IMG/VR virus record: IMGVR_UViG_3300046454_000614
Span: 1 to 55,450 of that record
Source of the DNA: a virus
Strand: one strand, 5' to 3'
Length of the DNA stretch: 55,450 nt
Every line of letters starts with the position of its first letter. Positions within the stretch are counted from its first letter, which is position 1. The position numbers and the translations under genes are program-made. The notes under the pieces are model-generated. The model ran no database searches and was not told the origin of the DNA. It saw nothing but the letters and a program-made list of their open reading frames with translations. This document shows positions 1 to 28,572 of this stretch, one piece after another.

Positions 1-3000
1 GTGGTTCGGGTTGCCGAAGTTCGAGGTCACGGCTTTGTCGCTTCCACCATAAGGGTAGAGGTTACCGGCAGCGGTCGCGTGCGTGTCGATGGTCGTCCAG
101 AGAGGGCTCGAAGGGTCGACGTGGTTATTGTAGAACGAGCGGACCTTGTGGTTTCCACCGAGCAGCTTGCTGACGTTTTCGAACGACGGATTGCGGTAGA
201 TGTCGACGACGTCGGCGAGGTCCTGGAAAGGCTTAGACCATTTCAGGTAGTCACCAGGGATGCGCTTTAGATTGTGGTCATGGAGAGGAGAGCGCGGTGC
301 GTAGAGCTCGTTGTGAGAGCGCATGAGCATACCGGCCTGGAGTGTGTCGAGCTCGGACATCTTGTCCCCGACTTTCATTCCGGCCAAGGCTTCGAGCTGC
401 CTGTTCTCCAGGTTCAGCGAAGTCGTAGTCCGAGGAGCTTCTTCTGTGCTCTCGGGCTTAGTGATTTTGGCTTTCAGAAATTCGAGGTCGGCCTGCGTGA
501 CGGTCGGGTCCTTCTTAATTGTGTCGAGGGCTCGGCGGGTCAGCGTGACGTTGTTGTTCCACTCCATCTGTGGAGAAAGACGCGCATTAATCGCGGAGAC
601 GATGTCACCGTGAACACCGTATTCTTTTCCCCACCGGTGAGACATGTCGTGCGCGAAGTCATACCACTGCTTCCAGAGGGCTCGGTCTTCGGGCGTAGCA
701 CGGTCGTAGAGAAACTGCAGGTTTTGCTGAACTCGATTGTTAATTTCATCAATTGCCTTGTTGGTGTCGCTTCCGTCGATGTCTCGGAACCCGGGCTGGG
801 TCCGGAACTGGTCGACGACTTTCTTGCGGTAGTTCTCGGTGTCTGGAGCTGCTTTAAGGGCCTCTAGGTCCAGGTGCTGGGACTCCTGGACGGTGCGGAC
901 ACGTCCCTTGGAGTTGTCTGTGCCCTCGGGTAGAGCGGCTGCGACCGGCCCGCGAACTTCACCCTGCGGCAGCTCTTGAGTTTTATTGAAGCTGGCCTTC
1001 GCCTGGGGGACGCGCTGCGCAGCGGGAGGCATGTTCTCCATCGGCTCACCGTTGCCGCTGGTCTTAACTTCCTGCTGGCCTTTGATGTCCCAGTAGGCTT
1101 TTTGGTTGAACATTTCTGCAGCGTGCTTCGCGATGTTCTCGTTCGGCGCGATATAGCTGACGTCCAGATAAGTCTTGCCGGACTCTTTGTCGTTCCAGGT
1201 GCCGATGACGTGGTCGGGCTGCGCCAGGAGGTCGGCGTTCTTTTGCGCGAAGCCTTTGATTGCCTCGGGAGTGAGCTCGCCTTTTTCGACGAGCTGCGTG
1301 CGGTCAGGATACAGAGAAGTTGCGAAGCCCTTTGTCGGGGCCTTGCCGCTGGTGACATCGAAGCTGGCTCCGCCGTTTTTCTCGGTCAGTGCCGCGATGC
1401 GCGAGGCGTAGCGGGAAAGCTCCTTGTCCTCGGGCATGTCGCGAGGGACATCCGGGCTCTGTGAAGGAGTGACATCGGTCGGTGTGAACTTCGCAGCGAC
1501 CTTCGCGCTCTTGTTGGCGTAGCCCTCGTAACCGGCGTCCTTGATTTTTTTCTCGTAGAGAGTGACGGCAGCTCGGTTGTCCATCGGAGCGAAGCCAGCC
1601 TTCTCCAACTCGTCGGAGCTGGGATAGAGGTCCTTCGGGTCCTTCTCGTAATCGTAGAGGTCCTTTGCAGAAATCTTGGCCTTGTATTTATTCTCCCCGA
1701 GCCCCGGCTCTTTCTCGTAGCCCTTCAGGCCGAAGTAGGTTCGCTTTTGGTAGAGCTCCGGGTAGTCCCGCATACGTGCGCGCTCTGCGCCGTTCAGGCC
1801 GGTGCCGTGCATTTCGGGGTCGAGTGTCTTCAGGCCTTCCTCGTTGCTGTAGTGCGTGAGGTCAGGGCTCTGGGAAACGCCGAGCTTCTTCAGGTCGAGC
1901 TTTCCACCTTCCCACGGCATCGGCTTAACACCGTTCTGCCGAAGGATTCGGTTGACCTCGGACTCTTTCAGAACTCGGTTGACCTTCATGTTGCCGCCAA
2001 TCATCCAATCGCCGGTCATGTTGGAATTGGTTTTGTAGCGGTAGTAGCCGTCTTCGGGCATGTGGTCGAGGTCGGCGTCACCGGCAACGAATTTTCCGTT
2101 GGGTCGGGTGCCGTTCTTCGTGGCCTCGGGCTGGTAGTCTTTGTTCGCGCCCAGTTCGACTTCGGCCCAGACTTCGTTGGCTCGGCGCGCTGCGACCTTG
2201 CCGCTCGCGTCTTTCACACCGATGTGTGAAGCGTAGGGGAGGTCTCCAGCGTGCCAGCCTGGACGGTAGGCGAGGTCGCCGAGTTTGCTCTTCACCTGCA
2301 TCCTGCCGGTCTCAGGATTTTTGTAGGCCTGGGTGTCTTCGGCCTTCTGCCACTCGCCCATCGGAATTTCTTTTTTCGAGTCGACGAACAGAGGATAGAG
2401 CTTGCCGTCGACAACTCGGAAGAGCTTGTAGCCCTTGACGGTTTTCTCCGGGTTGTAGTCCGGGTCCGGACTGTGGCTGACGACTTCGTGCGTGACGTTG
2501 TCAGGATTCGAGAGCTGGCGTTCGACAGAAGGCGCAGCGGCTTCGACTTTCGGGGCCTCGGCCTTGGGCAGCTCGAACTTGTAGCCTTTGCTCTCAAGAG
2601 AAGGTCCGTAGGTCGTGGTGTGCTTCGTGAAGCCCGGGGCCTCGTCGAGCATGGTGATTTGAGGGACCTTGCCTTTTCCGATTGCAGAAAAGTCCTGGTC
2701 TCCGTCGTAGGTCGCTTTGTATTTTTTCCCGTCCGGCCCAGTGACCTCGATTGGTTTCTTCAGGTCGGGGCTGAGGTTCTTAACCTGCTTCGAGTAGTCG
2801 GGCTTGGAGAATTCGGTCTCGTGCGGAGCGAGTGTCTCCATGCGGTCCATACGGTAGCTGCGGACGATGCCTTGAGCATCAGAGCCGCGCATACCGGCGC
2901 GCAGAGGGTTAGCCTTCTCCCAAGTGACGTTTTTACCAACCAGGAACGCATTGATGGCGTTTTTCTTTTCGTTGCCGATGCCGGTGTCCCCTGAGAGACC

Positions 3001-5919
3001 CTGCTTGTGGTTGTCCAAATACTTTGCGACATCGTCTTTGAATTCTTTGACGTTGCCGTCCCACAGGTCGAGGCTGAGGTCGCCGTGACGACCGGCCCAC
3101 ACCTGGGCCTTGTCATTGAATGCGCCGAGGCTGTAGTTGCGGACCAGGATGTTCCCGGCCTTGTCGACGTGAAAGTTGATAGGCAGAAATTGTTTGTGCT
3201 GCGCCGAGACGTTGCCGGTGTCGCGAGACACAGAACCTTTCCAGTCCGGGCCTTCGCCAATTTGCTGATACCAGCCCTGGCGCGCTTCGCCGTTCGCGAT
3301 GGCGCTCTCCAGGTCATGTGCCTTGGCCTTGGTGTCGTCATTAATCGTGCGGAGCTTGTCGAAGTCCGCACCGAGCGTGGTGCCGCTGCGTTCCGAGAGA
3401 CCCGAGGGGGTCTTGCGCCATTGCAGTTTCGGGTCCTGCGTGAGCGGGGCCTCAGATTGAGGTAGAGGATACGCAGCGTTCACCTCGGCTCGACGGCTTG
3501 CGACGATTTTTCGGATGTCCTTTTTCGGACGTGCCGTGGCTTGTCCAGAAGCAGACTGGGACATGAAGTCGTTGCCCAGTTCGCCATTCGGCAGAACGTG
3601 GACAGGCGCGCCAGGGTGATTGCCTAGCGTCTCGGGAGTAATCTTCACACCCTGCGGCTCGGGCTCGTCGATACCAGGACGGTGCTCCTTCATCGAACGA
3701 AGCAGAGAGTAGGTCGACTTGCGGAGCTCGGGGCTCGTGATTGTGTCTTCGAAGTTCGGGAGGATGGTCCTGCCGTTCTGTCCTTCGTTGAATTTCACTC
3801 CGAGGCCTTCGAGCAAGTTCTTGCTGCCCTGGACAACTCGGGACGACAGAGAAGGGTCGATGATGTCGGTGACGAGGTTCTTGCCCTTCATCGCTTTCAT
3901 ACCGGCCTCCGCCATGAGCTCAGAATAAATCCAGTGGTTCGGGTCGCTGTGGATTGCCTGAGAACCTTTGTCCATGCGGTCAATGTATTGGGTGACAGCA
4001 CGGTTGAAGTCGTCAGCGTTGGTGAAGCCCTTCTCGCCTACGATTTGTTCGACGTAGTCGCGCTTCGCTTGGTCGAGCGTTTTTCCAGTGCGCTGAAGAG
4101 AAGAATCAATTTGCGCCTTAAGCTCCGGGCGATTCGCGACCACAGAATCGAAGAGAGGATGGGTGAGCTCATGCAAAAGGGTTGTGTCGGCTCCTCGGCC
4201 AGAGTCGGCATTCAGATAAATTGTTCTAGCGGTCGGGTCCCAGAAACCAGCCGATTGCGCCGAGGCATCCGACTTGGTCGCTTGTTCAGCAAACTGCCCG
4301 CTCTCTCCATCGAGGAAGCGGACCTTGACGTCACCGAACATTTTCTGCGCAGCGGCAGCGTTCATCATCGTCGAGTCGTCAACTTTCTTGAGGGTCTCGG
4401 GCGATATGCCTTCGCTGACGTGCTGGTGATAGAGCTCAGCAGCAGCGTCCGACATCTTCTGCATGACACGGGCTCTGTTCTGCGCCGGTAAGGTCAGAGC
4501 ACGAGCGGCTCCGCCGAACCCGCCCATCTGTCCAACGCTCTGTCCAAACTCTTCGGGGGTGTCGGCATTGGCAGAACCGAGAGCGGCTCCGATAGCTGCG
4601 CCGTGAAGGGTGCCAGCGGCGACATCGCCAACTGCGCGAACGGCAGGAGCTGCGGCTTTGACTAGGCGAGAGGACGCAGCGTAGCGCATCCACTCCGGGG
4701 CGTCAGAATCTTTCGCCAGGGCAGCGAGACGACCAAAAGGATTGTTGCGGTCAGCCTCGGCCAAGGCCACAGAAGCCTCGCCAGCACCCTGCAGAGCTTT
4801 ACCGGCGCGCTTCGCACCTTCGAGACCGGCCATAACCATTTCAGGTGCTCCGCCGTGAATGACAGCGGTGACCGCAGAGATAGGTCCGACAGAAGCACCG
4901 AGCTTCTTCGCGGCCTCTCCAGCCTGGGGTCCGAGAGCTGCCTCGGTGATTTTTTGAGCGAGTGTCTCGGGCAACTCTCCGGTCTTCTCCAGAACGTGGC
5001 CGGTTGTCTTCATGACATTGCCAGCAACTTGCGCAGCCTTCTCGGCAGCGCTCGCCGTCTTTATACCGGCCTCAACTTTACGAAGGGCCTGAGCAGCGGG
5101 AGCTCCACCTAAGCTGAGATAGTTGAGCGGGTCCGCTACCATGCTGACTGCGCCGGTCAAGTTGGGGAGCGGCTCGGCTCCGCCGGACACGAGCTGCTGA
5201 AGAGCGGCAGGAGCGGCAGGAGTTTTTGCGAGCTCGTCTTTGTCTTGCTGAGCTCTCTTCCAAGTTTGATACTCGGCCTCTTCCTGCTCCGGGGTCGGAT
5301 TAATTATTCCGGCCTTCTTCAAAAGATTTCGGACCATGCCCCCGGGCTTATTAATCTCGTGATGAACCTGGGCACTCAGAAGAGCGCTAGGATTTAGTCC
5401 ACCGGCTGCACCGCTGGCGAGGTCTTCGATACTGGGCACGTCGTGCGTGGCCATGTTCAGATAATTCCGGCCAGTCTGCGCTACGCCTTCGAGAGCCGTT
5501 GCGCGGAGCCTGCGCGCTCCCTCTGTCTCTTCGAAGCCTAGAGGGTTTTGCTCTGCGCCAGCTTCAATGTTGCCGTAGGACTGGCCGAGCTCCTTAGCTC
5601 CGCCAATAGCCATATTGCCGAGGGACTTGACTCCCTCCCAAGCACCCTTCGCTACATCGCCGATACCCTGGTTCTTTTGCTGAGCGTAGAGCTGGCGATA
5701 GTGAGTGTCGCCAGGGTTGAGCTGGTCGAAGATGTCCTGTGTCGGGTTAATCTTGTCGAAGATGTCTCCGGTCGAGGGAGTCGCAGCGACCTGTTGCTGC
5801 TCTTGCGGTGCTTGCGGAGCACCAGCGGCAGACGAGTCGTTGAACTTTAGACCCTTGCTAGGAGTAGGCTTTGTGCCCTGGAGAGTTCCAGGATTTAGCT
5901 GGTCGAAGATGTCAGACAT
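1..5919 (-). CDS. Giant polyvalent-type virion protein (3' end outside window)
   Basis: Frame stays open from ATG at 5919 to the left edge (1973 codons, no stop), so the protein is longer still. The N-terminus has three copies of a DIFD[QK][LI]NP motif (residues 3-10, 52-59, 62-69), then Ala/Gly-rich helical stretches. A zincin-type motif HELTH lies at residues 583-587. Around 1160-1235 is a segment with RPGWHAGDLPYASHIG, a signature I associate with large polyvalent phage proteins. Residues about 1356-1467 look like an ADP-ribosyltransferase domain: HYS at 1356, a TYFG core, and GYEGY at the end (E1465). The last visible part has KVRSFYNN and TIDTH motifs of a further domain. Being last in the leftward structural series and huge, it is probably an internal or ejected virion protein. 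Domain names are inferred from motifs; the enzymatic activities are not shown. Confidence 0.85.
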   Translation of the reverse strand, partial: MSDIFDQLNPGTLQGTKPTPSKGLKFNDSSAAGAPQAPQEQQQVAATPSTGDIFDKINPTQDIFDQLNPGDTHYRQLYAQQKNQGIGDVAKGAWEGVKSLGNMAIGGAKELGQSYGNIEAGAEQNPLGFEETEGARRLRATALEGVAQTGRNYLNMATHDVPSIEDLASGAAGGLNPSALLSAQVHHEINKPGGMVRNLLKKAGIINPTPEQEEAEYQTWKRAQQDKDELAKTPAAPAALQQLVSGGAEPLPNLTGAVSMVADPLNYLSLGGAPAAQALRKVEAGIKTASAAEKAAQVAGNVMKTTGHVLEKTGELPETLAQKITEAALGPQAGEAAKKLGASVGPISAVTAVIHGGAPEMVMAGLEGAKRAGKALQGAGEASVALAEADRNNPFGRLAALAKDSDAPEWMRYAASSRLVKAAAPAVRAVGDVAAGTLHGAAIGAALGSANADTPEEFGQSVGQMGGFGGAARALTLPAQNRARVMQKMSDAAAELYHQHVSEGISPETLKKVDDSTMMNAAAAQKMFGDVKVRFLDGESGQFAEQATKSDASAQSAGFWDPTARTIYLNADSGRGADTTLLHELTHPLFDSVVANRPELKAQIDSSLQRTGKTLDQAKRDYVEQIVGEKGFTNADDFNRAVTQYIDRMDKGSQAIHSDPNHWIYSELMAEAGMKAMKGKNLVTDIIDPSLSSRVVQGSKNLLEGLGVKFNEGQNGRTILPNFEDTITSPELRKSTYSLLRSMKEHRPGIDEPEPQGVKITPETLGNHPGAPVHVLPNGELGNDFMSQSASGQATARPKKDIRKIVASRRAEVNAAYPLPQSEAPLTQDPKLQWRKTPSGLSERSGTTLGADFDKLRTINDDTKAKAHDLESAIANGEARQGWYQQIGEGPDWKGSVSRDTGNVSAQHKQFLPINFHVDKAGNILVRNYSLGAFNDKAQVWAGRHGDLSLDLWDGNVKEFKDDVAKYLDNHKQGLSGDTGIGNEKKNAINAFLVGKNVTWEKANPLRAGMRGSDAQGIVRSYRMDRMETLAPHETEFSKPDYSKQVKNLSPDLKKPIEVTGPDGKKYKATYDGDQDFSAIGKGKVPQITMLDEAPGFTKHTTTYGPSLESKGYKFELPKAEAPKVEAAAPSVERQLSNPDNVTHEVVSHSPDPDYNPEKTVKGYKLFRVVDGKLYPLFVDSKKEIPMGEWQKAEDTQAYKNPETGRMQVKSKLGDLAYRPGWHAGDLPYASHIGVKDASGKVAARRANEVWAEVELGANKDYQPEATKNGTRPNGKFVAGDADLDHMPEDGYYRYKTNSNMTGDWMIGGNMKVNRVLKESEVNRILRQNGVKPMPWEGGKLDLKKLGVSQSPDLTHYSNEEGLKTLDPEMHGTGLNGAERARMRDYPELYQKRTYFGLKGYEKEPGLGENKYKAKISAKDLYDYEKDPKDLYPSSDELEKAGFAPMDNRAAVTLYEKKIKDAGYEGYANKSAKVAAKFTPTDVTPSQSPDVPRDMPEDKELSRYASRIAALTEKNGGASFDVTSGKAPTKGFATSLYPDRTQLVEKGELTPEAIKGFAQKNADLLAQPDHVIGTWNDKESGKTYLDVSYIAPNENIAKHAAEMFNQKAYWDIKGQQEVKTSGNGEPMENMPPAAQRVPQAKASFNKTQELPQGEVRGPVAAALPEGTDNSKGRVRTVQESQHLDLEALKAAPDTENYRKKVVDQFRTQPGFRDIDGSDTNKAIDEINNRVQQNLQFLYDRATPEDRALWKQWYDFAHDMSHRWGKEYGVHGDIVSAINARLSPQMEWNNNVTLTRRALDTIKKDPTVTQADLEFLKAKITKPESTEEAPRTTTSLNLENRQLEALAGMKVGDKMSELDTLQAGMLMRSHNELYAPRSPLHDHNLKRIPGDYLKWSKPFQDLADVVDIYRNPSFENVSKLLGGNHKVRSFYNNHVDPSSPLWTTIDTHATAAGNLYPYGGSDKAVTSNFGNPNH

Positions 5920-5925
5920 AAAGTG

Positions 5926-7671
5926 CTAGATGGCATAACCAGCACTTTTGGCTAACTGTCTCGCTTTAGCATTGTCTCCCTTGGCTTGGTCAATGAACTT
6001 CTGAGCCGTGGCGGCATCCAGAGTTTTACTTTGACCAGAGCCAGCGGAGCCTTCGACGGTGCCGTTGCCGACACGAGGCGAAGTTCCAGTTGCTTCTCCT
6101 GGGAGTTCCGGAACTTGGGTCATGAGCCGTAAAGCTCTTTTCTTTCCAAGTGCCAGTTCGCCGAGCGAGCGAGGTGCCTGAGTGCTCTGTATTGCTGCGC
6201 TGTGAGCTGCTTGCGCATTAAGCCGCGCTGATTCGAGAAGGGCTTCTCGATGCTCGGGCAAAAGAGTCTGCCCGGACAGCGCGTGATAAAGTGGTTGCTT
6301 GATTGCGTCGATGATGTTGTGGGTGTCACCGACTAACTCCTGGGTCGCTTCGTTGAATTTCGCGTTAGGAGCAAAAGTTTGTGCGTAGAGCTGCGCCAGG
6401 GTCCGGTCGTTTACGCCGGGAGCCTTCGAGGTCTTCGCGAGCTCGGCCTGATGCAGCATGTTGCCGTAGGCCTTGATGACATTCTGGGCAGACTTCATGT
6501 TCTCGTCGCCAGAGATTGCCTTGTTGAGAGAGTCGACCTTCCCGGCCATTTCCAGACCGGCAGGTGTAGCCATGCCGCCCCCGCCTTCGTCGCCCTCTCC
6601 AGCGAAAGGATTCGCTTTGTATTTGATGGTAGGCAGGCCGGTGCTCGGGTCGACGGTCATTTCGTCCGCATACATTCCTTGAGGAGTGGAAATTCCCGAG
6701 CGTGCCCACTGCTGCATACGGTAAGCGCGGACTGCCTCGGTCGGAGAAACTGTGGTCCCTCCGGGGGCTCCCTTTTGGTAACCAGCGATGACTTTTTTCT
6801 GTTCGCTCCGGGAGAGCTCATCCCACGGGGTTGAAGCATCATGAGAAGCGGACTGCGCGGCTGCGGCAGCTGCCGAAAAAGGTTTGCCGTGAATTCCGAA
6901 CTGCATTGCATCGGTGCTCGGGCCAGCGTCACCACCAGCAGAAGCACTGGAGGCAGTCGTTGCAGAAGGGATAGCGTTGAGCCGAGAAGCGGAGCCGAGG
7001 CTCGCACTGTCCGGCTGAGGAACACCAGAGCTCGGAACATCGGGCAGAGAGTTGGCTGCTTTCTGGTCGCCCTTCAGAGCGGGGATTTGCCGGTTCGGTT
7101 TCGCGAACGTGGTCTTCGGGTTGCTGGCCTTGACATCACCAGGGTGACCGGTGCCAGCTTTGAAGCCGTAAATATTGTAATCGAAACCGTTGTCTCCCTC
7201 GGTGCTCGGGGAAGTCGCGGTCTCGGTCGCATCAGATTTCGGCAGAGTGGTCGTCGACTGCGCCGAGGCCTGCTGCGGATTTTGGAAAGAGGTTGGCTCT
7301 CCAGCGGCAGCGGTCGCGCCAGCCTGGGGCGGGGGCGGAGCCTGTTCCTGGCCTACGTCATTGCCCGAGGGAACACTCTCGTCGTTTCCGAATGCGCCCT
7401 GCGGGTCGTAAGTCATCAGATGGAACTGACGCTTCGCGTTATTCAGATTGAACTGGCCGGTCTCCTGAGCAAGGCCGGATTGAGCGTGAGTGTCCTGAAA
7501 CTGTTTGTCGGCTAGCTCCTGGTTGTGCTGGCGGAACTCGTTCTCTTTTTGGATTTGGGCCTGCTGCGCGATATACTCAGGCGACTTGGACTTCAGCCAA
7601 TTCTGGACAAGAGTTTGCACCCCCGTCCACTGAGGAGGGGTCGGCGTTCCGAAACCTGTAGCGCTTGCCAT
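5926..7671 (-). CDS. Structural-region protein, 581 aa, unknown function
   Basis: The ATG at 7671 follows an AGGAGAAAAGTT-type ribosome-binding site. The N-terminal 100 residues are Gln-rich and helical (QAQIQKENEFRQHNQELADK). A long low-complexity Ala/Ser/Pro/Gly segment fills roughly residues 100-280. The C-terminal 250 residues are more regular and helical, with a conserved-looking stretch near GDTHNIIDAIKQPLYHALSG. It lies 6 nt upstream of the giant polyvalent gene and in the same leftward unit. Composition and position fit an internal virion or ejection protein, but I do not recognise the family. Confidence 0.8.
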   Translation of the reverse strand: MASATGFGTPTPPQWTGVQTLVQNWLKSKSPEYIAQQAQIQKENEFRQHNQELADKQFQDTHAQSGLAQETGQFNLNNAKRQFHLMTYDPQGAFGNDESVPSGNDVGQEQAPPPPQAGATAAAGEPTSFQNPQQASAQSTTTLPKSDATETATSPSTEGDNGFDYNIYGFKAGTGHPGDVKASNPKTTFAKPNRQIPALKGDQKAANSLPDVPSSGVPQPDSASLGSASRLNAIPSATTASSASAGGDAGPSTDAMQFGIHGKPFSAAAAAAQSASHDASTPWDELSRSEQKKVIAGYQKGAPGGTTVSPTEAVRAYRMQQWARSGISTPQGMYADEMTVDPSTGLPTIKYKANPFAGEGDEGGGGMATPAGLEMAGKVDSLNKAISGDENMKSAQNVIKAYGNMLHQAELAKTSKAPGVNDRTLAQLYAQTFAPNAKFNEATQELVGDTHNIIDAIKQPLYHALSGQTLLPEHREALLESARLNAQAAHSAAIQSTQAPRSLGELALGKKRALRLMTQVPELPGEATGTSPRVGNGTVEGSAGSGQSKTLDAATAQKFIDQAKGDNAKARQLAKSAGYAI

Positions 7672-8759: not shown

Positions 8760-9194
8760 CTAAGAAGTGGCGTCAAAGTAATAACTGCGGTATTTCGCCT
8801 GCATCGCGAGGCAAAAGTCCATTCCGCCCACGAGGAGCGCGACCTGGATAAAAACGTCCTGATACTGGCTCTTAATCACTTGGCTTGATAGCCGGTCCAG
8901 GGCGTTGTCCCGTTTCTTGAAGTCCTCGGACGAGACCCAAGCCAGGGACGAGCTGAAAATGACCGGCAGAAAAACTGCGCGGTGCTCCTGGTAAAACTTG
9001 TTCTGGCTGACCTCGATGAGCAGGTCCATGTTGGCGCTCACCAGCTGCGAGGCAGTCACATCCTGGTCCCGGTCGAAGAGGTCATCTTGGACCTGGACCC
9101 ACACGTAAAATGCCCGCATAAAGCGGTGGGCATCTTCGTTGCCGTTCGAGATTTCCTTCAGTGCTTCGAGAACAGTCACAGTATAAGGTAGCAC
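8760..9194 (-). CDS. Conserved-looking helical protein, 144 aa, GTG start
   Basis: The frame opens with GTG at 9194, 10 nt after the stop of the fibre gene upstream, and ends at 8760. The sequence is almost entirely helical: HRFMRAFYVWVQVQDDLFDR, then two more amphipathic segments. The acidic DDLFDRDQD patch superficially resembles a DDxxD motif, but the rest does not fit prenyl synthases. No clear Shine-Dalgarno precedes the GTG, so expression may depend on translational coupling. Function unknown; possibly a tail or particle assembly protein. Confidence 0.65.
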   Translation of the reverse strand: MLPYTVTVLEALKEISNGNEDAHRFMRAFYVWVQVQDDLFDRDQDVTASQLVSANMDLLIEVSQNKFYQEHRAVFLPVIFSSSLAWVSSEDFKKRDNALDRLSSQVIKSQYQDVFIQVALLVGGMDFCLAMQAKYRSYYFDATS

Positions 9195-9934: not shown

Positions 9935-12073
9935 TTAAACAGAGCCTCCACCTAGTGCCACGCGCAGCGTCTGCACTCGGTTGAAGAGATTAGATAGGTC
10001 AGTGGACGACATGTTGAAATGGAAGCACGCGAACGAGAGAGTGTCCGAGCAGAAAGAGTTATTCGCCCCGTTACCGTTTTGTGCAAACACCGACATGGGG
10101 TTAGTAGCTACCGCTGTGCCGGTGAAGCTCGTTGTGTCTGTCGCATTAATCTGCGCGAAAGCGGAGCCCGTCTTCGCAAACCAGACTCGGTGGTCCGTCG
10201 AGGATGTCCGGTTGTTCGCGTAGAAGCCTATGCCTGGAGATAGGGTGCCGCCGATTAAGTTCGCGTTCGCACCATCGAAGCTGTAGAAGAAGGTGTCGCT
10301 GAACTTACAGGATAGAGTCAGACGGGAGGTTGCGCCTGCTCCGTCCCAACTACCCATAACTGCACCGTTGGACCCAGTCGCGGGCATCATGACAGCTAGG
10401 CCTATGTTGTTTGTTCCTGCGACGATGGGCTTAATCCCCGTGTTCAACCACTTATTCGAACCGTTGCCAGTGAGACCATTGACGGTCAGGTCTCCGCCCA
10501 CGAAGTTAGTATTAGTCCAAGGGTCGTTGAATGCACCGACTAGCGCGCTAATCAGTGGAGTGATTGCCGCAGTTAAGCTGTCGGGGACAAAGCAGTTGCA
10601 GGACAGAATTTTATTGTCGATGGCATCGGTAGCCAGTCCGGCCATAAAAGTTTTCAGAGCAGTCACGGTGCCGCCACTCGGAGCTGCCCCGCCGTTTGCG
10701 ACCACGCGCAGAGCCCAGTCGTCGACGCAATCGTTTCCAGACAGGGTCACATAACCACCGTGAAGGTCCTTCCGCATTTGATGGACGCGAGTGAATAAGT
10801 TTGCCGACTGCCCCGAAGACAACCCGCCATGCACAGCGGCAAAGGACATTCTCCTATTACTAAAACCTGCCGGGGTTCCGTTGGCGTTCGAACCAAAGCA
10901 GTAAACCGAACGGGTTGAGCTCCTGGTCTGGTCTGAGACACCGGAACCTGTCACCAAAGTGGAGTGCGGGAAATTTGACGAACCCTTATAGACCGCATGA
11001 GCATTGGACGCAGTGCGGTTGGATGACACAAACCCAGTAGCCGCCGGATAGGCGACAGCGATACGCCCCGTCCCGGCTCCGTAAATGTCACTGTAAATAT
11101 TTCCATCGCTCCAAGGAGCGTAAAGGTGGAACGAATTGACGTTGAAAGCGCTTCCCTCACAACCCAGGTCGATGATACCGCTAGTGCTTGCGGAATAGTT
11201 ATAGACCGTCAGAGCTCCGTCATTGTCACTGGCGAAGGTCGGATTGGGTAGAATGCCGGTGTCTAAATATTTAGAAGAGCCGTTGCCTTTGAGACCATTG
11301 AGGGATAGGTCGCCCAAGACAAAACTATGGTTTGTCCAAGGGCTGATACCCGTGCCCTTGATGAGAGGAGTGATTGAAGCAATGAGGCTGTCTGGCACAA
11401 AGCAGCAGACACCCTTCATCGAAGTGTAGATGCTGTCGGTGACCAGACCGTTCATGAACGTAGTCAGAGCGGTCTGAGTTGCCCCACTAGGCGTTGCTCC
11501 ACCGGCTGCAACTACCCGAGTCACCCAGTCGCTGGTGATGTCCGTGACCACACAAGCAGTCGATGTAGCTGACGCGCTGGCGGCGTCCGTTGCAATCAGG
11601 GTGTAGCTGCCGTAATCGCCTGTGCTAATACCGGTGAGAGTGAGAGTCGTAGTGGTCGCACCGGAGACAACGCCACCGTTGCTCAAGTTTACTCCATTCT
11701 TCTGCCACTGGAAAGTGACCGGCGCAGCGCCATTGATTTCAGTCGCGGTGATTATGATGTTGTCACCAGCCATCGCACCTACTGAAGCGGTGGGCTGGAC
11801 AGAGAAGGACGGAGGTGTCCCTACGCCCCCTGATGCCCAGCCGAAGACGGGCAGGATAGTAGAGTTGAGTGTGCTGGTCTCGTAATTCTCGAACGCTACC
11901 AGAGCGGCGTAGGTGTAGACTACACCAGGACCGGCCCAGCCTCTTTCAGGCCCGCCATAGTCCAATCTCTGCGATTCGAAGTCCTCGAAGGCCCCGATGC
12001 TCGGGGAAGGAAATTCACCGAGAGAGAAGCGACGTTGACGCCTAAGAAAATGAATTCTTCCAAAAGTGCTCAT
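9935..12073 (-). CDS. Tail fibre/adhesin: Ig-like domain plus two tandem modules
   Basis: 712 aa. Residues about 86-177 form an Ig-like beta domain (PPSFSVQPTASV, VTFQWQKNG, GDYGSYTLIATD). It is followed by two homologous modules of about 260 residues (182-442 and 452-712). Each begins with DW, RVV, GGA, PSG and a TAL-TFM-GL block, has a CCFVPDSL or CNCFVPDSL motif, and ends in an LF-RV helix followed by a GG[YS]V tail. A third copy forms most of the protein at 22915-23742. The gene overlaps the preceding one by ATGA. Such modules usually bind host surface glycans or build fibre shafts; the exact ligand is not readable. Confidence 0.8.
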   Translation of the reverse strand: MSTFGRIHFLRRQRRFSLGEFPSPSIGAFEDFESQRLDYGGPERGWAGPGVVYTYAALVAFENYETSTLNSTILPVFGWASGGVGTPPSFSVQPTASVGAMAGDNIIITATEINGAAPVTFQWQKNGVNLSNGGVVSGATTTTLTLTGISTGDYGSYTLIATDAASASATSTACVVTDITSDWVTRVVAAGGATPSGATQTALTTFMNGLVTDSIYTSMKGVCCFVPDSLIASITPLIKGTGISPWTNHSFVLGDLSLNGLKGNGSSKYLDTGILPNPTFASDNDGALTVYNYSASTSGIIDLGCEGSAFNVNSFHLYAPWSDGNIYSDIYGAGTGRIAVAYPAATGFVSSNRTASNAHAVYKGSSNFPHSTLVTGSGVSDQTRSSTRSVYCFGSNANGTPAGFSNRRMSFAAVHGGLSSGQSANLFTRVHQMRKDLHGGYVTLSGNDCVDDWALRVVANGGAAPSGGTVTALKTFMAGLATDAIDNKILSCNCFVPDSLTAAITPLISALVGAFNDPWTNTNFVGGDLTVNGLTGNGSNKWLNTGIKPIVAGTNNIGLAVMMPATGSNGAVMGSWDGAGATSRLTLSCKFSDTFFYSFDGANANLIGGTLSPGIGFYANNRTSSTDHRVWFAKTGSAFAQINATDTTSFTGTAVATNPMSVFAQNGNGANNSFCSDTLSFACFHFNMSSTDLSNLFNRVQTLRVALGGGSV
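9938..10720 (-). repeat. Fibre module copy B
   Basis: Residues 452-712 of the 712-aa fibre. It aligns with copy A (10748-11530) and with the standalone copy at 22918-23697: same DW-RVV-GG-PSG opening, FVPDSL motif and LF-RV-LR-GG ending. Divergence between copies is high enough that the repeat is visible in protein, not as exact DNA repeats. Confidence 0.75.
10748..11530 (-). repeat. Fibre module copy A
   Basis: Residues 182-442 of the 712-aa fibre, directly after the Ig-like domain. It shares the module signature with copy B and the copy near the portal gene. The central part carries an insertion (SNFPHSTLVTGSGVSDQTRS) relative to the other two. Confidence 0.75.
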
Positions 12074-12435: not shown

Positions 12436-13323
12436 TTAAGAGAATACCTGAACCTGGAGCACATTGGTAGCGCTAAGGCTGGAAATAGTGGGAGCTGCCC
12501 AGACGGTGTCGTAGTTCGTTCCAGAGTTCTTGGTCAGCACCTCATTGGTCGCACCACCGGCAGGGACCTCGTGCGTGTCTCTCCAGACCTCGTCGTAGTT
12601 CGTCCCAGAATTTTTGCTGAGAACCTGGGCAGTCGAGCCGCCGGTAGGAACCTCGTGGACATCCTGCCAAGCCTCGTCGTAATTTGTTCCAGAATTTTTC
12701 CTCAGTGCCTGACCGGTCGAGCCGCCGGTAGGAACCTCGTGGACATCCCTCCAGCCCTCGTCGTAGTTCGTCCCGGAGTTCTTGCTGAGCACCTGAGCGG
12801 TGGAACCACCGGCAGGAACCTCGTGGACATCCCTCCAGCCCTCATCATAGTTCGTCCCAGAATTTTTGCTGAGCACCTGAGCGGTAGAACCGCCGGTGGG
12901 AACCTCGTGGACATCCTGCCAGCTGTCATCGAAATTAGTGGAAGAGTTCTTCCGCAATGCCTGACCGGTCGTGCCCCCAGTAGGTAGACCCGAGGCGGCT
13001 GCTTGCCAGCTTGCATCGTAGTCCGTTCCAGAATTTTTGGTCAAGACCTCGCCGGATGCTCCACCAATAGGTAGCTCGTGTAAGGTCTTCCAGCTGGCAT
13101 CGCCATCTGTGGAAGAATTTTTCTCCAGCGCTTGGCCGGTCGTTCCGCCGGGAGGGAGACCCGAGCCGCCGGTAGTAGACAGAGAGCGGAGGAACCGTTC
13201 AATCTGCCGAACGGTCTGCTCGGCTTGACGGGTCCATAGAGACACATTCTGCTGATACTCCGGAAGGCTAAGAGAGCCTAGCTTCGGAGTGGGCGGCAGA
13301 ATAATATTTCCGAGCTCGCTCAT
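12436..13323 (-). CDS. Repeat-containing fibre/neck protein, 295 aa
   Basis: An N-terminal helix (about residues 20-48, QQNVSLWTRQAEQTVRQI) is followed by eight copies of a roughly 28-residue unit, consensus LPxGGTTGQALxKNSGTNYDxxW, and a short C-terminal tail. This repeat is widespread in phage tail and fibre proteins, where it forms elongated beta structures. The start codon overlaps the stop of the nozzle gene (TAATG), so the two are probably made together. The helix may anchor the shaft to the particle. Confidence 0.8.
   Translation of the reverse strand: MSELGNIILPPTPKLGSLSLPEYQQNVSLWTRQAEQTVRQIERFLRSLSTTGGSGLPPGGTTGQALEKNSSTDGDASWKTLHELPIGGASGEVLTKNSGTDYDASWQAAASGLPTGGTTGQALRKNSSTNFDDSWQDVHEVPTGGSTAQVLSKNSGTNYDEGWRDVHEVPAGGSTAQVLSKNSGTNYDEGWRDVHEVPTGGSTGQALRKNSGTNYDEAWQDVHEVPTGGSTAQVLSKNSGTNYDEVWRDTHEVPAGGATNEVLTKNSGTNYDTVWAAPTISSLSATNVLQVQVFS
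12499..13158 (-). repeat. Eight tandem ~28-codon GG(T/S)TGQxLxKNS repeats
   Basis: Eight units in tandem, residues about 56-275 of the 295-aa protein. Units 4 and 5 differ at a single residue, pointing to recent unit duplication, while the outer units have drifted. A single diverged unit also occurs in the protein at 23742-24854 (PTGGTAGQVVKKNSGTNFD). Confidence 0.9.
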
Positions 13324-15929
13324 TAGTAGGTCCCTCCGGGTCGGCAGTGAATTTCAAAACTGGAAACGGCCCACTCTACGTCGGCGTCCTGAGAGAACAT
13401 GCGGAGCCTGAGATAGCGACCGGCCCCGCCAGGGTTAATCCTGACGACGTCGCTGGTATTGCCCGACACACTCACAGGGAATGGGTCAGTGAATAAGATG
13501 CTGTCTTCCGGAGTGCCTAGACCGGCGCGCTGCCCCACTTGGAGATAGAGCGTGCGAGTCTGATTCGTCGCGGCAGAAATAGTTAGGCCGATGACGACCA
13601 CATCGACATACTTCCAGATGTCTGGCTCGCCCAGGTCAAAGTCCTGTGTCTCGGACAGACACTTGTAGCCTCTGCCGTTTCGGTTAAAGGTATTGCCGAA
13701 TCCCCAAATGACAATTTCTCCGTCGCCGAAGCCGAGCAGAAGGACTCGGTCGGTGCTCGAACCGGCGAAGCTGAGCCAGTTGAGTGTCGGGTCCATCGTG
13801 TCCCAGGTCAGAGACTCGGGCAGCGAATTCCACGGCGGGTCGACCGAGAAGTCGACATCGGAAGCCGCGCTGATGCCCCTGACCGAGCTGTCGTAGTAGT
13901 CGAAGCTGCAGGTGTCCTCGACGTAATTCCAAATGAGAGTCTTTTGTCCACCGTTGATGGGATAGGAAATCCAGACCTCGTGCCGGATTTCTTTATGCAC
14001 CATAACGATTTCGTTCAGGCGAGTGCGGTCAATTTCTTTCAGCACCTGCCGAGTGACTTGAGTAGCGATAGGCTGAGGAGAAGGCCCGCCGGTATAAAGG
14101 TAGAGCTCTTTGTGGCCGAGGAAAACAATTCGACCGTCGCCGAGATTCAGGACGGCAGTGCGCGAGAGCGCGCCCTCATCGCTGATTTCGGGATGGATGA
14201 AGAACGTCCCGGACCCCAGGCCGACATACTGGATTGACTGAATCGAGCGCTCTTTGAAAATGTAGGCGTAGTCGCCCATCGCGATGATTTTGAAAATCTT
14301 TCCGTTCATCTTCGAGCCGACTACCCGGGTCTCCCCGGCTTCGTTCGCATCGACCGTGAAGAGCTGCTGACCGGCAGCGATAGTCAGACCAGTGGTCGTG
14401 TGTCCGGTCAGGTCTTGCAGACGAGCGGTGATGACGTTAGGTCCGGTCGCGACCGCAGTGACCTGATAGTAGTTGTAGAACTGGTTAACAGTTCCCGAAC
14501 CGCGATTGTCCTGAACAAAAATAAACTGACCCACGACGATGCCAGCAGCAACTGGGTCCGTGGTAACCGGAATGGCTACAGTCGCGCCAGTGGCCGGTTG
14601 AACGTAGCCAGGGGTGTCGAGGACGAACACTGCAGAAGCAGCGGTCTGCGCGACCGGAATCCAGTTCGTGTAGTCGTCCTTGTCTGACCATTTGAGACGG
14701 TCGTCTTTCCACAGAAGGGCATGACCGAAGAAGGCTTCGACTCCGTCCCATTGCGAGTCTGCTGACGGCAGTCCCGGAATCGGCTGGCAAACATTAGGAA
14801 GGGGAGCGGTCCAATACTGCGCTGGGTTGTCGTGTTGCGCCAGGAGGATGGTGTCGAAAAAGTCTGTGGCTGTCCAGGGATAGCCTGTGGTCGGCGTAGC
14901 CCCGCTGAACAAATTCGTTGGAGTGAGGAAGAACACCCCACTAGTAAAAGAGCGGTCGAGAGATTCTACCAGACCACCGTGCGCTCCGATGAGAGGAGTC
15001 GGCACAGAGCCGATGAGGTTGCCCTGATACAAAAGAGAGTAGGCCCCGGCGTTGAACGGGAAGTCGAGGCCAGTGCCCGCATTGTAAATCGTGGTCAGCT
15101 CCGTTCCGCTCAAGACCCGATTGAAAACGGACATCGAGTCTGCCGCAACGGTCTCGGAGTTTGCAGCGTCAAAAACAGTTACCGTCTGGGGACCGGCAGC
15201 ACCGAGGACTACAGAGAAAGTCGAAGCGGTGCCGTTGTTGATTTTGAGCGTTACCGTCGCCCCATCGTAAGTCAGGGAAATGAAATACCAAGTGGCGAGA
15301 GGCATGAAGCCAGCACTAGAAAAAGTGTTGGTCACGAACCCAGCCGTAGGAGTGGACTTGAAAAAAGTTCCTCTGATGAAACCACTGACCGACTCCAGCT
15401 TTGCACCAGGGAAAGAAAAGAGAGTCGAGGTGTGAGATACCGAGCCAACGTAGAACCACCCAGCGATGGTGAAAGGCGCGCTGGCTAAATGCACGAGAGC
15501 TGGTGCCTCGGTGTGCAGAAACGGATACGAGGTGTAGCTGGCCGGGACGAAGCCGGAAAATTTCTGCGCACCTTTGCCGATTTTCCCGCCCACCTGATTG
15601 ATGTGAACAATAGGAGGAACAACGTCGTCGTTGTTCCCGGGGGACTCTGCTAGGTCATAGGAATTAATGGACGCATCTATGCGTGTGCCGCTGGCCTCTT
15701 CCATGCGCCAGTGGGCCAGTAGGCCGGTCACCAGGGAGCCTACCTGGGCCTGGGTGTAACCAGGAGCGTTCTTGGTCACTCCGTCTTCATAGCGGACATT
15801 CTGCGCGTCCGTAGCGGTGCGCTGCATGTCGCCTTGGCGATACATGTCTGCGGACTCGTGAGGAAAGCGTGTGACTAGTCCACGCGACGGAGCCCGGACT
15901 CGGACGCTGATTGGGTCTGCGCGTCTCAT
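13323..15929 (-). CDS. Nozzle/tail-tubular-B-like protein with inserted LamG-like domain
   Basis: 868 aa. The start (PISVRVRAPSRGLVTRFP, then TDAQNVRYEDG) and the second half (GDYAYIFKERSIQSIQYVG, DEGALSRTAVLNLGDGRIVF, HKELYLYTGG) match the beta-propeller-type tail hub of short-tailed phages, related to P22 gp10 and T7 gp12. Residues about 68-290 interrupt this with a concanavalin/LamG-like domain (LLAHWRMEEASGT, FTIAGWFYVG, TWYFISLTYDGATVTLKING-type strand). The ATG overlaps the stop of the collar gene (TAATG). It should form the tail nozzle; the inserted lectin-like domain could give the tail surface a glycan-binding face, which is inference. Confidence 0.85.
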   Translation of the reverse strand: MRRADPISVRVRAPSRGLVTRFPHESADMYRQGDMQRTATDAQNVRYEDGVTKNAPGYTQAQVGSLVTGLLAHWRMEEASGTRIDASINSYDLAESPGNNDDVVPPIVHINQVGGKIGKGAQKFSGFVPASYTSYPFLHTEAPALVHLASAPFTIAGWFYVGSVSHTSTLFSFPGAKLESVSGFIRGTFFKSTPTAGFVTNTFSSAGFMPLATWYFISLTYDGATVTLKINNGTASTFSVVLGAAGPQTVTVFDAANSETVAADSMSVFNRVLSGTELTTIYNAGTGLDFPFNAGAYSLLYQGNLIGSVPTPLIGAHGGLVESLDRSFTSGVFFLTPTNLFSGATPTTGYPWTATDFFDTILLAQHDNPAQYWTAPLPNVCQPIPGLPSADSQWDGVEAFFGHALLWKDDRLKWSDKDDYTNWIPVAQTAASAVFVLDTPGYVQPATGATVAIPVTTDPVAAGIVVGQFIFVQDNRGSGTVNQFYNYYQVTAVATGPNVITARLQDLTGHTTTGLTIAAGQQLFTVDANEAGETRVVGSKMNGKIFKIIAMGDYAYIFKERSIQSIQYVGLGSGTFFIHPEISDEGALSRTAVLNLGDGRIVFLGHKELYLYTGGPSPQPIATQVTRQVLKEIDRTRLNEIVMVHKEIRHEVWISYPINGGQKTLIWNYVEDTCSFDYYDSSVRGISAASDVDFSVDPPWNSLPESLTWDTMDPTLNWLSFAGSSTDRVLLLGFGDGEIVIWGFGNTFNRNGRGYKCLSETQDFDLGEPDIWKYVDVVVIGLTISAATNQTRTLYLQVGQRAGLGTPEDSILFTDPFPVSVSGNTSDVVRINPGGAGRYLRLRMFSQDADVEWAVSSFEIHCRPGGTY

Positions 15930-16633
15930 TAGAGTCTGATGATAAAGTTAGAACCGAAGGACGGCTGCAAGTTCGTGTGCGAAGCAGCGTCGGCCTTCAG
16001 CTTGACGTTGGTGACGCCGGTCCCCGAGCCGTCGCCAAAGTTGTGTGCGTTCACGATTAGTTTTTCGAGAGACACACGACCACCGGTCTGTGCATCACCG
16101 TCGTCTTCCTCGATATTAATGTCCAAGCTGCCCTGCTGACTCGGAGACAGAGTGACAGAATCTACACCGGCTGAATCGCCGAGGGCAGCGATAGCTGGGG
16201 TTCGGCCCGCTCCACCGTCGAGGCCAACGGCAACACGACCGCGCCGGTCCGGGACATTGAAGTGACTCGCGCCCCCGGAATTTCCGTAGGTCGTCGCGAT
16301 GACTGCGAAGAGCGCGGCATACGTCGGGTCAGTCCCGTCGTAGTTGGCTCCATCGCACAGAACATAGTTGGTGGGAGCTGCAGAGCCTGCAAACTCCAGG
16401 ACAGCCCCTGTAGGAACCTGGAACAGTGTGCCTACACCGGCAGTGAGCTTGGCGGGCGTGACGGTTGCGTCGACGAGAGCCGCGCCGGTCACCACGTTGT
16501 TCTTGAAGGTGCCGTCGTCATTCAGAAAAACGCTGAAGATGACATTGAGAGCCGTCTTGACAGCGCGAATCGCCGAGGCCCCGAGTTTTACTGGGTCTGT
16601 GTCGGCTGGAATTGAGTCGGGAAAAAGAGCCAT
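15929..16633 (-). CDS. Tail collar domain protein, 234 aa
   Basis: Residues about 75-145 contain the phage tail collar signature: VPTGAVLEFAGSAAPTNYVL, CDGANYD, YAALFAVIATTYG and FNVPDRRGRVAVGLD. The ATG at 16633 is chosen because it has AGGATG upstream and lies just past the preceding stop; the longer frame would overlap that gene. The N-terminal 60 residues are helical and may attach the protein to the tail. Collar-domain proteins sit on tail fibres or appendages. Confidence 0.88.
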   Translation of the reverse strand: MALFPDSIPADTDPVKLGASAIRAVKTALNVIFSVFLNDDGTFKNNVVTGAALVDATVTPAKLTAGVGTLFQVPTGAVLEFAGSAAPTNYVLCDGANYDGTDPTYAALFAVIATTYGNSGGASHFNVPDRRGRVAVGLDGGAGRTPAIAALGDSAGVDSVTLSPSQQGSLDINIEEDDGDAQTGGRVSLEKLIVNAHNFGDGSGTGVTNVKLKADAASHTNLQPSFGSNFIIRL

Positions 16634-16637
16634 AATT

Positions 16638-17300
16638 TTACATCCTATTTTCTCTGCCGGTTGTGTCTTTGTAAGCGTCCTGGCGCATAGCAACTCCGAA
16701 CTGCTCTCCGAAGAGCTGCTCGGTTTGACCAGCGGCTGGGTCGTTGATTCGGTTGAAAGCTTTTGTCTTCGCCTTGAGCTCGACCATTTCAGGATACTGA
16801 ATCATGAACTGGTTCGTGTCGTTGTCGTTGACGAGGTCCGGGAAAAATCTGTAGTAGCGGACATTGAAAACCAAGTCCTGCGTGCCAGGGATGACGATGC
16901 CGAGGGTCTTGACCTGCGTGCCGTAAGTGGTGAGGTCGCTCTCCTCGGTGAGGAACACCGACATAAGAGGGAACATCGTGATGTCGAAGTTCCAGGCGGA
17001 GCGCACCTGCTCGGACTCGGTGACGACATTGACCGGCTTGGCGACAGCTCCACCAGGGACGGCAGGGTCTTGAATCGCCAGGGTGACTGCGGGCCGGACG
17101 TTCTGGAGCTCCTTGTAGTCAGCTGGGAGCGCGACAGAAGTCTGACCGGCGAGAAGTGTGACCGTGGCCCGGGTCCGCATGAAGGACCACGAGCGGCGAT
17201 TTTGGATTTCGCGGAGAGCGGCGTTAACGAATCCGTCGTAGGACAAATCGTTGCGGAGAACACCTTGCTTTACCGCTGCCTGCATGTCAGCGAAGTTCAT
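16638..17300 (-). CDS. Head-tail adaptor (SU10/P22 gp4-like), 220 aa
   Basis: The opening MNFADMQAAVKQGVLRND, the NAALREIQNRRSWSFMR helix, the LPADYKELQNV segment and the C-terminal RYYRFFPDLVNDNDTNQF with KAFNRI helix are typical of adaptor (tail-tubular-A/gp4-like) proteins that join portal to nozzle. The length fits the family. The gene follows a strong terminator and precedes the collar and nozzle genes, in the expected order. Confidence 0.82.
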   Translation of the reverse strand: MNFADMQAAVKQGVLRNDLSYDGFVNAALREIQNRRSWSFMRTRATVTLLAGQTSVALPADYKELQNVRPAVTLAIQDPAVPGGAVAKPVNVVTESEQVRSAWNFDITMFPLMSVFLTEESDLTTYGTQVKTLGIVIPGTQDLVFNVRYYRFFPDLVNDNDTNQFMIQYPEMVELKAKTKAFNRINDPAAGQTEQLFGEQFGVAMRQDAYKDTTGRENRM

Positions 17301-17868: not shown

Positions 17869-19128
17869 TTAGGTGATTTTCTGCAGCGACTGCGCGTAGC
17901 CGAAGGCGTTCGCGAAGCGGAGCTTCAGACCGAGCTTAGCCCGGAACTGCTCCTTGTAGCTGTCCTGGCCCGGGGTCTGGATGTTGGGTTCCAGGAACAA
18001 GGGCTCCATAGTTTTCTGCATGACGTGCGCCAAGTCCACAACGAACATCCAGTCGACGAAGGTCGGGATTTCTTTGAGGAGCGGGTGGAACGCGAGGTCG
18101 AGCTCACCGAAGGGAGTGTTGACCACGGTGATGTTCATACCGAACACAGTTTCCTGGTTCATGATACGGAACCCGTTGGCCGCGCTGTTGGCGAAAGTGC
18201 TGAACACGCTGTAAGCGGTCGGGCCGCAGAGAGCGAGCTTCGCGTCCGAGCCGACAGTCATGAACGAGTTCAACCAAGCATTGACGTTCGCGAGCGAGGT
18301 GCCCGAGCCGCCGTTACCGTTGAGTGCGTTGACCGTGAGGCCAGCAGCGTCGACTGCATTCTTGATGCCGCCGGTGAAATATTCGTAGCCGCCGGAAGCG
18401 CCGGTTGCGCGCCGTTTCAGGCCGAGCAAGAAGCTGCCTTCGATGTCCTTCGAAATACGTTCGAGGGCCTGGATGCGCCGAGCCTTCAGAGGACCGGCTT
18501 GGTCGGAGCGGAGCTTGTTCGCTTTGAAAGCGTTCGAGAGCTCGATGACCGAGTTGAAAGTCTGCACGTAGTTCGTGAGAACCGTGGGCTCTTCGTAGGA
18601 ACCGCGAGAAGGAACCACGCCCTCTTCTTTACCAGCAGTAACGATGCTCCAGGTGTCGTCGATGTTGATGACGGTCGCACCGGTAGGCGCGGCGTCAATC
18701 GACCGAGCCACGGTGACCGTGTTGGTCGTCGGGGTCGCGGTCACTTCGATATACTCGCCGGTCCGCGCATTGCGCAGAATGTGACCCTGAATGAGGTAGG
18801 GCCAAGCATCGACCGAGGAGCCGCTGGCGGCTGAGAAAACGATTGTGCCAGAAACGCCCTGAGAGACAGGGGGAACGGCGTTTGCGCCGGACGTATGGTC
18901 GGCGAAGATTTCCCGCTTCACTGGGTCGCGTTCGAACCAGTTGAATTCGGTGTTTTCGGCGGGCTCGGCTTTCAACCGGGACATCAGCCCGAACAGCGTT
19001 GAACCGGCATTCATGCCTTTGCTGTTACGGACCAAGATGCTCTCCTGGTATTCACCGACGAGGTCGCCCTTATTGTCCAACGAATTGCTTACGTTGGTTT
19101 GAGAAAGTAATCCTGCTACTGCGCTCAT
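17869..19128 (-). CDS. Major capsid protein (SU10-like HK97 fold)
   Basis: 419 aa. The opening (MSAVAGLLSQTNVSNSLDN, YQESILVRNSKGMN), the internal EPTVLTNYVQTFNSVIELSN and the C-terminal PFGELDLAFHPLLKEIPTF, DWMFVVDLAHVMQKTM pattern fit the SU10 major-capsid / DUF5309 group of HK97-fold proteins. It has an AAGGGG ribosome-binding site, its own promoter at 19186-19214, and is enclosed by terminators at 19260 and 17316, consistent with very high expression. Confidence 0.88.
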   Translation of the reverse strand: MSAVAGLLSQTNVSNSLDNKGDLVGEYQESILVRNSKGMNAGSTLFGLMSRLKAEPAENTEFNWFERDPVKREIFADHTSGANAVPPVSQGVSGTIVFSAASGSSVDAWPYLIQGHILRNARTGEYIEVTATPTTNTVTVARSIDAAPTGATVINIDDTWSIVTAGKEEGVVPSRGSYEEPTVLTNYVQTFNSVIELSNAFKANKLRSDQAGPLKARRIQALERISKDIEGSFLLGLKRRATGASGGYEYFTGGIKNAVDAAGLTVNALNGNGGSGTSLANVNAWLNSFMTVGSDAKLALCGPTAYSVFSTFANSAANGFRIMNQETVFGMNITVVNTPFGELDLAFHPLLKEIPTFVDWMFVVDLAHVMQKTMEPLFLEPNIQTPGQDSYKEQFRAKLGLKLRFANAFGYAQSLQKIT

Positions 19129-22914: not shown

Positions 22915-23742
22915 TTAAACAAACCCACCACCCAAAGAAGTTCTCAGAGCCTGCACCGCTGCGTAGAGCGTGCCGCTGTCCGTAGCGTTCATGCCGGTAG
23001 TGACGGCTGCGAACGAATAGATGCGCCCCAGTGCCTCGCCGAATGTCCCGTCTGTGTTCATTCCGATACCCATTGAAAAGTTGAGGTTCGAAATGTCCCC
23101 GGTCTCGGCTGTAGCGATGCTACCGATAGATGCGTGAGCGCTGCCGCTGTTGGCAAAATACATGTTGAGGCTGGTGCTACCCGTGCGCTGGCAGGAGTAG
23201 AAGCCGTTAGCTCCTGCGCCAGCTACGGTGAGGAGCACTTTCCCGATTTGAGTTTTTTTATTCCCAGAAGCGGTGCCGAAGTAGAGCCCGTCACCGGTCG
23301 CAACGTGGAGGGCTCCGAAGTCTATAGCGTGCTGAGGGTCAGCGGCGATGTCGTAGCCATAGAGCACTACGCCCGCACTGTTAAACGACAGGCCAGAAAG
23401 CGACGGCTGAATAATGCCAACAAGTGTCGGGTCTCCGACAATGTTGAGTGCCCAGCCGTTCAATCCGCTTCGACCGTCGTAGTTGTCATGAGCTAGATTG
23501 TCCCAAGGGTCGACACCACTTGGACCGACGATGAGAGGAGTCCGGGCGGCAATCACACTGTCCGGAGCAAAGAAATTGCACGCAACGATTTGGCTCCTGA
23601 TGTCCCTGATTGCCAGATTGAATGACGCCAGTGCTGTGAGCGTGTTACCGCTCGGCATGGGTCCACCGTTCACCACAACTCGACGAGCCCATTGGTCGCC
23701 GAGAGCCATGAACGGAAGGTCGTTGACAGATTGCGTAATCAT
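22915..23742 (-). CDS. Standalone copy of the fibre module, 275 aa
   Basis: After a 15-residue leader (MITQSVNDLPFMALG) the protein is one module of the type repeated in the 712-aa fibre: QWARRVVVNGG, PSGNTLTALASF, CNFFAPDSVIAARTPLI, ending in LYAAVQALRTSLGGGFV. It starts in a TAATG overlap with the preceding gene. Placed between a decoration-like protein and the portal, it could be a head fibre or a virion surface protein, which is inferred from the module only. Confidence 0.75.
   Translation of the reverse strand: MITQSVNDLPFMALGDQWARRVVVNGGPMPSGNTLTALASFNLAIRDIRSQIVACNFFAPDSVIAARTPLIVGPSGVDPWDNLAHDNYDGRSGLNGWALNIVGDPTLVGIIQPSLSGLSFNSAGVVLYGYDIAADPQHAIDFGALHVATGDGLYFGTASGNKKTQIGKVLLTVAGAGANGFYSCQRTGSTSLNMYFANSGSAHASIGSIATAETGDISNLNFSMGIGMNTDGTFGEALGRIYSFAAVTTGMNATDSGTLYAAVQALRTSLGGGFV
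22918..23697 (-). repeat. Fibre module copy C
   Basis: Residues 16-275 of the 275-aa protein, homologous to copies A and B in the fibre gene more than 10 kb away. It differs in the central region and has FFAPDSV in place of CFVPDSL. Confidence 0.72.
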
Positions 23743-28474: not shown

Positions 28475-28572
28475 AAAATTGGTGGAGCTTATCGTGCCCC
28501 AGTCGGAGAGTTACCATTCCAGCCACTCACACGCTGCCCGTTGCCCTAATGGTCTCGGCTTCGGGAGATTGG

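Follow-up and report, generated by a model that had tools for sequence, protein, structure and literature searches.

In phages, giant multi-domain proteins that are described as polyvalent proteins have been predicted to be injected and self-processed (Iyer et al. 2017, PMC5512222). The way in which giant proteins are chosen for entry into the head has been worked out for few phages (T4, P1). In P1, a reporter is directed to the capsid when it carries no more than the first 30 residues of DarB, and the signal is reported as a single region that is longer than 9 but shorter than 30 residues (PMC9024508).

Here, we analysed a giant gene of a tailed phage on the contig IMGVR_UViG_3300046454_000614 (55,450 nucleotides, below called the window). 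Its product resembles the polyvalent proteins of PMC5512222 in being a giant multi-domain phage protein that is encoded in the late operon and that combines a probable zincin, an ART-family-like domain and uncharacterised domains. In contrast to this protein, with its candidate glycosylase fold, no glycosylase-fold domain is mentioned among the polyvalent proteins in that work ('glycosylase' has 0 occurrences). Proteins of the polyvalent kind are already known; what looks new here is the repetition of the tag, the payload swap that can be seen between strains and the domain with likeness to a glycosylase.

A giant gene closes the late operon

The gene spans positions 1..5919 on the minus strand. 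Its ATG lies at 5919 and no stop codon is reached, with the C terminus beyond the contig end; the window encodes residues 1–1973 of about 2147. The original prediction, which did not name the strand, had described an unbroken frame of at least 1973 codons that carries a zinc-peptidase motif, an RPGWHxGDLP-type segment, ART-like motifs and three N-terminal DIFD-type motifs. All of these are present: HELTH at residues 583–587, RPGWHAGDLP from residue 1219, HYS with its H at 1356, GYEGY at 1463–1467 and DIFD at residues 3, 52 and 62. It had also suggested extending the contig leftward to find the stop. The near-identical sister contig IMGVR_UViG_3300046463_000715 continues the frame (L002:2-4801) and adds 174 residues, followed by a stop codon, and the full protein thus has about 2,147 (~2,150) amino acids. 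At the two ends of this 65.9 kb sister contig (L002/L003), 877 bases overlap with an identity of 96.8% instead of 100%, and the contig is therefore probably a circular or permuted genome that was built from two strains.

For all domains that can be aligned between the window and the sister strain, a codon comparison gave dN/dS values from 0 to 0.18, and the protein is thus constrained. Furthermore, the self-repetition of its first 120 residues beats all but 1 of 3000 shuffles. Based on these two results, the frame is a gene and not a chance open frame. A PDB sequence search with the whole protein found nothing significant, an NCBIfam search gave no match and single-sequence queries of viral contigs matched the sister phage alone.

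The giant gene closes the late operon, where the terminase, portal, head and tail genes are located upstream on the same strand. These encode the terminase large subunit (26688-28229), the portal (20770-22908), the major head protein (17869-19128), another virion protein (16638-17300), a tail collar/fibre protein (15929-16693), an 868-aa virion protein that is kin to Bruynoghevirus particle proteins (13323-15929) and a protein with Hoc-like head-decoration matches (9935-12073). Directly upstream of the giant gene, also on the minus strand, a 581-aa protein with a low-complexity leader and no family match is encoded (5926..7671); it is a neighbour, and joint action with the giant protein is not shown. 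Two further proteins (12436-13323 and 23742-24854) match phrog_22680, the first of them with seven stretches, and the DNA near 12499-12930 self-aligns 84 bases out of register; these are repeat-rich late proteins. The late operon also encodes a 144-aa protein (8760-9194) that matches phrog_21390 (E 1e-15), a family without known function, and a tRNA-Met gene (28570-28646) lies immediately upstream of the terminase gene.

A probable zincin

The region of residues 490-720 (3760..4452, minus strand) contains HELTH (4159..4173). When nine divergent giants are aligned, only H96, E97, H100, E180 and A183 are invariant, that is, HExxH and a downstream E..A. Column E180 corresponds to E667 within WIYSELMAE (3919..3921), which is the predicted third zinc ligand. 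A strand, TIYLN, precedes HELTH and WIYSELMAE follows, an arrangement that is also reported for the metallopeptidases of polyvalent proteins (PMC5512222). With Pfam, nothing in this region scored above the cut-off, and DUF6782 was found below threshold (E 0.092). The ligand set and its context support the zincin that had been proposed around HELTH, and a zincin metallopeptidase is thus probable.

A C-terminal domain with likeness to HhH-GPD enzymes

The further C-terminal domain of the original prediction corresponds to Pfam DUF7178 (PF23802), although neither the family nor its possible glycosylase-like fold had been recognised. It covers residues 1683-1973 (1..873, minus strand), with the remainder in the sister contig, and scores 49.8 bits in the window and 76.4 in the sister contig at a cut-off of 27. 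The domain is found nearly only in viruses, with at least 588 loci in IMG/VR compared to 20 among 84,980 species genomes; a plasmid search with it returned none. The ORFs that contain its relatives range from about 420 to 3500 residues in length, and HExxH is present in the same frame in 32 of 80.

The structure model of DUF7178 (pLDDT 91, pTM 0.87) is nearly all helix. Its top PDB match is the 8-oxoguanine glycosylase Pa-AGOG (Foldseek probability 0.87, E 0.093), whereas the other listed matches have probabilities of at most 0.13; the whole-chain TM-scores to AGOG are low (0.25/0.35). LLGGNHK-VRSFYNN...TIDTH of DUF7178 lines up with LPGVGRK-TANVVLN...AVDTH of endonuclease III. Here, K1925 (145..147, alignment column K243) and D1945 of IDTH (85..87, column D263), both on the minus strand, take the positions of the HhH-GPD catalytic Lys and Asp. 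Both residues are invariant in 70 sequences, and hhalign gives the same K/D register. Bifunctional HhH-GPD enzymes use the Lys and the Asp at these positions for catalysis.

With AGOG and endonuclease III, the domain has in common LSxQ, Lys and DTH in this order, and its model consists of helices and is matched best by AGOG. It differs from HhH-GPD enzymes in that a long insertion separates LSxQ from the hairpin and in that no profile match is significant; furthermore, the [4Fe-4S] cysteine pattern of Nth was not seen in it, and PDB sequence searches with it gave no significant match. DUF7178 could well be an unrelated all-helical fold, whose KVR..F.NN..DTH likeness to endonuclease III is due to convergence or chance, and we rate this at somewhat below an even chance. 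It would agree with the non-significant hhalign comparison to Nth/MutY (probability 0.2, P 0.26), the Foldseek E-value and the size of DUF7178, which is about twice that of Nth; however, the sole high-probability PDB match is an HhH-GPD enzyme, the three landmarks share their order, and solo versions of DUF7178 of about 200 aa are known. The structure model and the alignment are suggestive, not proof, and we consider it slightly favoured that DUF7178 is a divergent HhH-GPD glycosylase-like enzyme. If true, base-excision activity would be new to the list of polyvalent proteins in PMC5512222, and base excision might act as a weapon or a shield at DNA entry.

Among the relatives, the closest DUF7178 giant (L013:2548-10272) carries a histidine phosphatase domain in the middle of the protein (PF00300, E 3e-30), which is an unusual payload. 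In Rhodobacteraceae phage LS06 and Roseobacter phage CRP-738 (gp40; L009 and L010), a SAM-methyltransferase-like sequence, read by eye and annotated as such in LS06, precedes DUF7178 in the same protein.

The ART-like domain and an apparent cassette exchange

The ART-like domain (residues 1354-1490; 1450..1860, minus strand) includes H1356 and GYEGY and has 33 viral relatives. In an hhalign comparison with eight Pfam-confirmed ART-PolyVal domains, it reached a probability of 55% (P 1.2e-4), compared to 0.1-0.2% in two control profile comparisons. The match spans the second half, where AGYxGY is aligned against GYDG. H1356 is invariant among the relatives, and the model (pLDDT 86, pTM 0.78) places it on strand 1. 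The HYD2 clade of ARTs uses H, Y and D; at the acid position of GYDG, the strand-5 D is replaced by E in the window and by K, L or A in the relatives.

Similar to ART-PolyVal (PF18760), the domain carries an H on its first strand, and AGYxGY stands where GYDG would be expected; the profile similarity is moderate. It differs in that it is below Pfam detection, lacks the conserved catalytic D and has no ART fold match. That the domain is an active ADP-ribosyltransferase, as originally proposed, seems unlikely to us. The profile probability relative to the controls and the invariant H speak for such an activity, whereas no ART was found among the listed PDB fold matches, Pfam gave no ART match and the acid is replaced. 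A PDB sequence search with the profile of the domain found nothing significant. Of the prediction, the motifs stand and are accompanied by a distant profile likeness; a fold match, a Pfam match and a conserved acid were not found, and as the listed PDB matches include no ART fold for residues 1350–1470, this part is close to refuted. We thus tentatively regard the domain as a distant ART relative whose activity is doubtful.

RPGWHAGDLP lies in the preceding domain, which matches phrog_30118 (residues 1157-1336; 1912..2451, minus strand; E 1.8e-54), a family with 102 viral relatives and no known function. A PDB search with the phrog_30118 profile gave no significant match. That phrog_30118 is itself ART-like was rejected, as the profile comparison gives no support, and a combined alignment of both domains was dropped, as it paired the two families incorrectly. 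Behind the ART-like domain follows a small conserved phage domain with no assigned function (residues 1513-1625; 1045..1383, minus strand; weak matches to phrog_3170 and phrog_17808).

When comparing the window to the sister contig, we find 96.7% identity over one flank, and the small domain is 100% identical. In the sister contig, phrog_30118 is absent: instead of residues 1132-1350, which comprise this domain and linkers, it has about 28 unrelated residues. Furthermore, dS is 0.67 in the ART-like domain, whereas it is 0.10-0.23 in the other domains. The missing phrog_30118 and the divergent ART-like allele in an otherwise near-identical contig thus point to a cassette exchange in which the backbone was kept and the payload changed, which the original prediction had missed. 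Both sequences are metagenome assemblies and a chimera is possible, yet both keep the frame and a low dN/dS. The comparison of sister strains would capture payload exchange behind a constant backbone.

A repeated N-terminal motif as candidate tag

DIFD[QK][LI]NP is found in three copies within the first 70 residues: DIFDQLNP at residues 3-10 (5890..5913), DIFDKINP at 52-59 (5743..5766) and DIFDQLNP at 62-69 (5713..5736), all on the minus strand. A scan for every possible coding of DIFDQLNP in the 2.9 million viral contigs of IMG/VR detected the exact motif in six stretches. Two belong to the strains of this phage and three are lone copies in unrelated frames. The remaining stretch (L212/L215) is from another phage, where a 1286-aa protein has three N-terminal copies, the third being DIFEELNP. 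This protein contains a DUF3990/ART-type domain and its body is otherwise unrelated to the giant protein. Among these contigs, repeated DIFDQLNP thus occurs only in the strains of this phage and at the N terminus of the 1286-aa protein, and the triplet is both N-terminal and portable between proteins, as expected of a capsid-targeting sequence (T4 IPIII, P1 DarB).

N-terminal self-repeats were also surveyed in giants that were collected via three domain families, with ORF starts set to the first ATG and a threshold of p<=0.005 in 200 shuffles per sequence. They were detected in 17 of 72 non-redundant giant ORFs, whereas 0 were found among 144 internal windows (Fisher 1.9e-9) and 7 among 180 N termini that belong to other ORFs (Fisher 7e-6); several of the 17 are units of about 25 residues, which may be small domains and not tags. 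Examples are LTPDEIASA/LTPEEIASA (L013), GIQLDMSKSVPLG/GIQLDMSKSVPVG (L033) and NPFDAFD/NPFDAFD (L053).

The suggestion that the DIFD motifs serve as a packaging or docking tag is strengthened by these statistics and by the same triplet on an unrelated protein. By analogy to P1, a capsid-targeting tag similar to that of DarB is the best reading of the triplet. In both cases, a short N-terminal signal would be located on a giant injected protein, and in DarB it is sufficient for capsid entry (PMC9024508); DarB has a single signal region, whereas here three 8-residue copies are spread over 70 residues. It is improbable that the repeats arose by neutral duplication within a disordered leader and do not act as a tag: unstructured leaders duplicate easily and the families differ in their motif letters, but the same eight letters recur in three copies (the third altered) on an unrelated giant, and repeats are enriched at the N termini of giants, not in internal windows and less so in other ORFs.

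More generally, lineage-specific motifs of 8-15 residues, repeated two to three times for avidity, might form a zip code of giant injected phage proteins, behind which payloads are freely exchanged, with one constant payload of glycosylase fold; this generalisation is conceivable, and we would put it at somewhat less than an even chance. A repeated lineage-specific tag that is readable from sequence would make the question of head selection directly testable and would help to recognise injected proteins in phages that lack annotation.

A probable virion-packaged polyvalent protein

The giant protein combines in a single chain several domains that differ in their chemistry (the zincin set, phrog_30118, the ART-like domain and DUF7178) and is encoded among packaging and virion genes. 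Its DUF7178 and ART relatives lie in ORFs of 1500-4400 aa, most giant ones with HExxH, and their adjoining genes encode portal/coat, internal virion or lysozyme proteins. The predicted polyvalent, virion-type protein is supported by the domain make-up, by the place of the gene in the late operon and by relatives that adjoin portal, coat or internal-virion genes. We consider it fairly probable that the protein is packaged into the virion and injected, with a capsid tag, a zincin and a swappable payload that includes the HhH-GPD-like DUF7178.

For packaging, injection, autoprocessing and each enzymatic activity, we infer the following course. With P1 DarB as precedent, the three DIFDQLNP-type copies would act as a multivalent capsid-targeting tag that binds a protein of the head interior during assembly, and the giant protein would leave the virion together with the DNA. 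The zincin would then cleave the chain into separate domains, as proposed for polyvalent proteins. The payload downstream would consist of a middle cassette that is open to exchange, with phrog_30118 either present or absent and a divergent ART-like domain, and of the constant C-terminal DUF7178. The latter is predicted to be a divergent HhH-GPD base-excision-type enzyme that, via K1925 and D1945, performs glycosylase/AP-lyase chemistry on DNA in the new host.

A mainly structural ejection (ejectosome or core) protein that aids the DNA across the envelope and does not modify host targets, with enzyme-like domains as scaffolding or decayed remnants, would suit a gene that closes the structural module, as genes of podovirus internal proteins do. 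It would also suit the non-conserved ART acid and a cyanophage A4 pre-ejectosome chain as the listed PDB match with the highest TM-score to the ART-like model (TMq 0.33, probability 0.10), but it is not likely, as the zinc ligands and the Lys and Asp of DUF7178 are strictly conserved and the payload differs as a unit between near-identical strains, which is odd for a channel part.

Lastly, the ART-like domain also occurs in the 4012-aa 'lysin' of Microcystis phage Mel-JY33 (L011:3627-15665), together with an N-terminal FDPxxALRER repeat, and this protein looks like a polyvalent protein.
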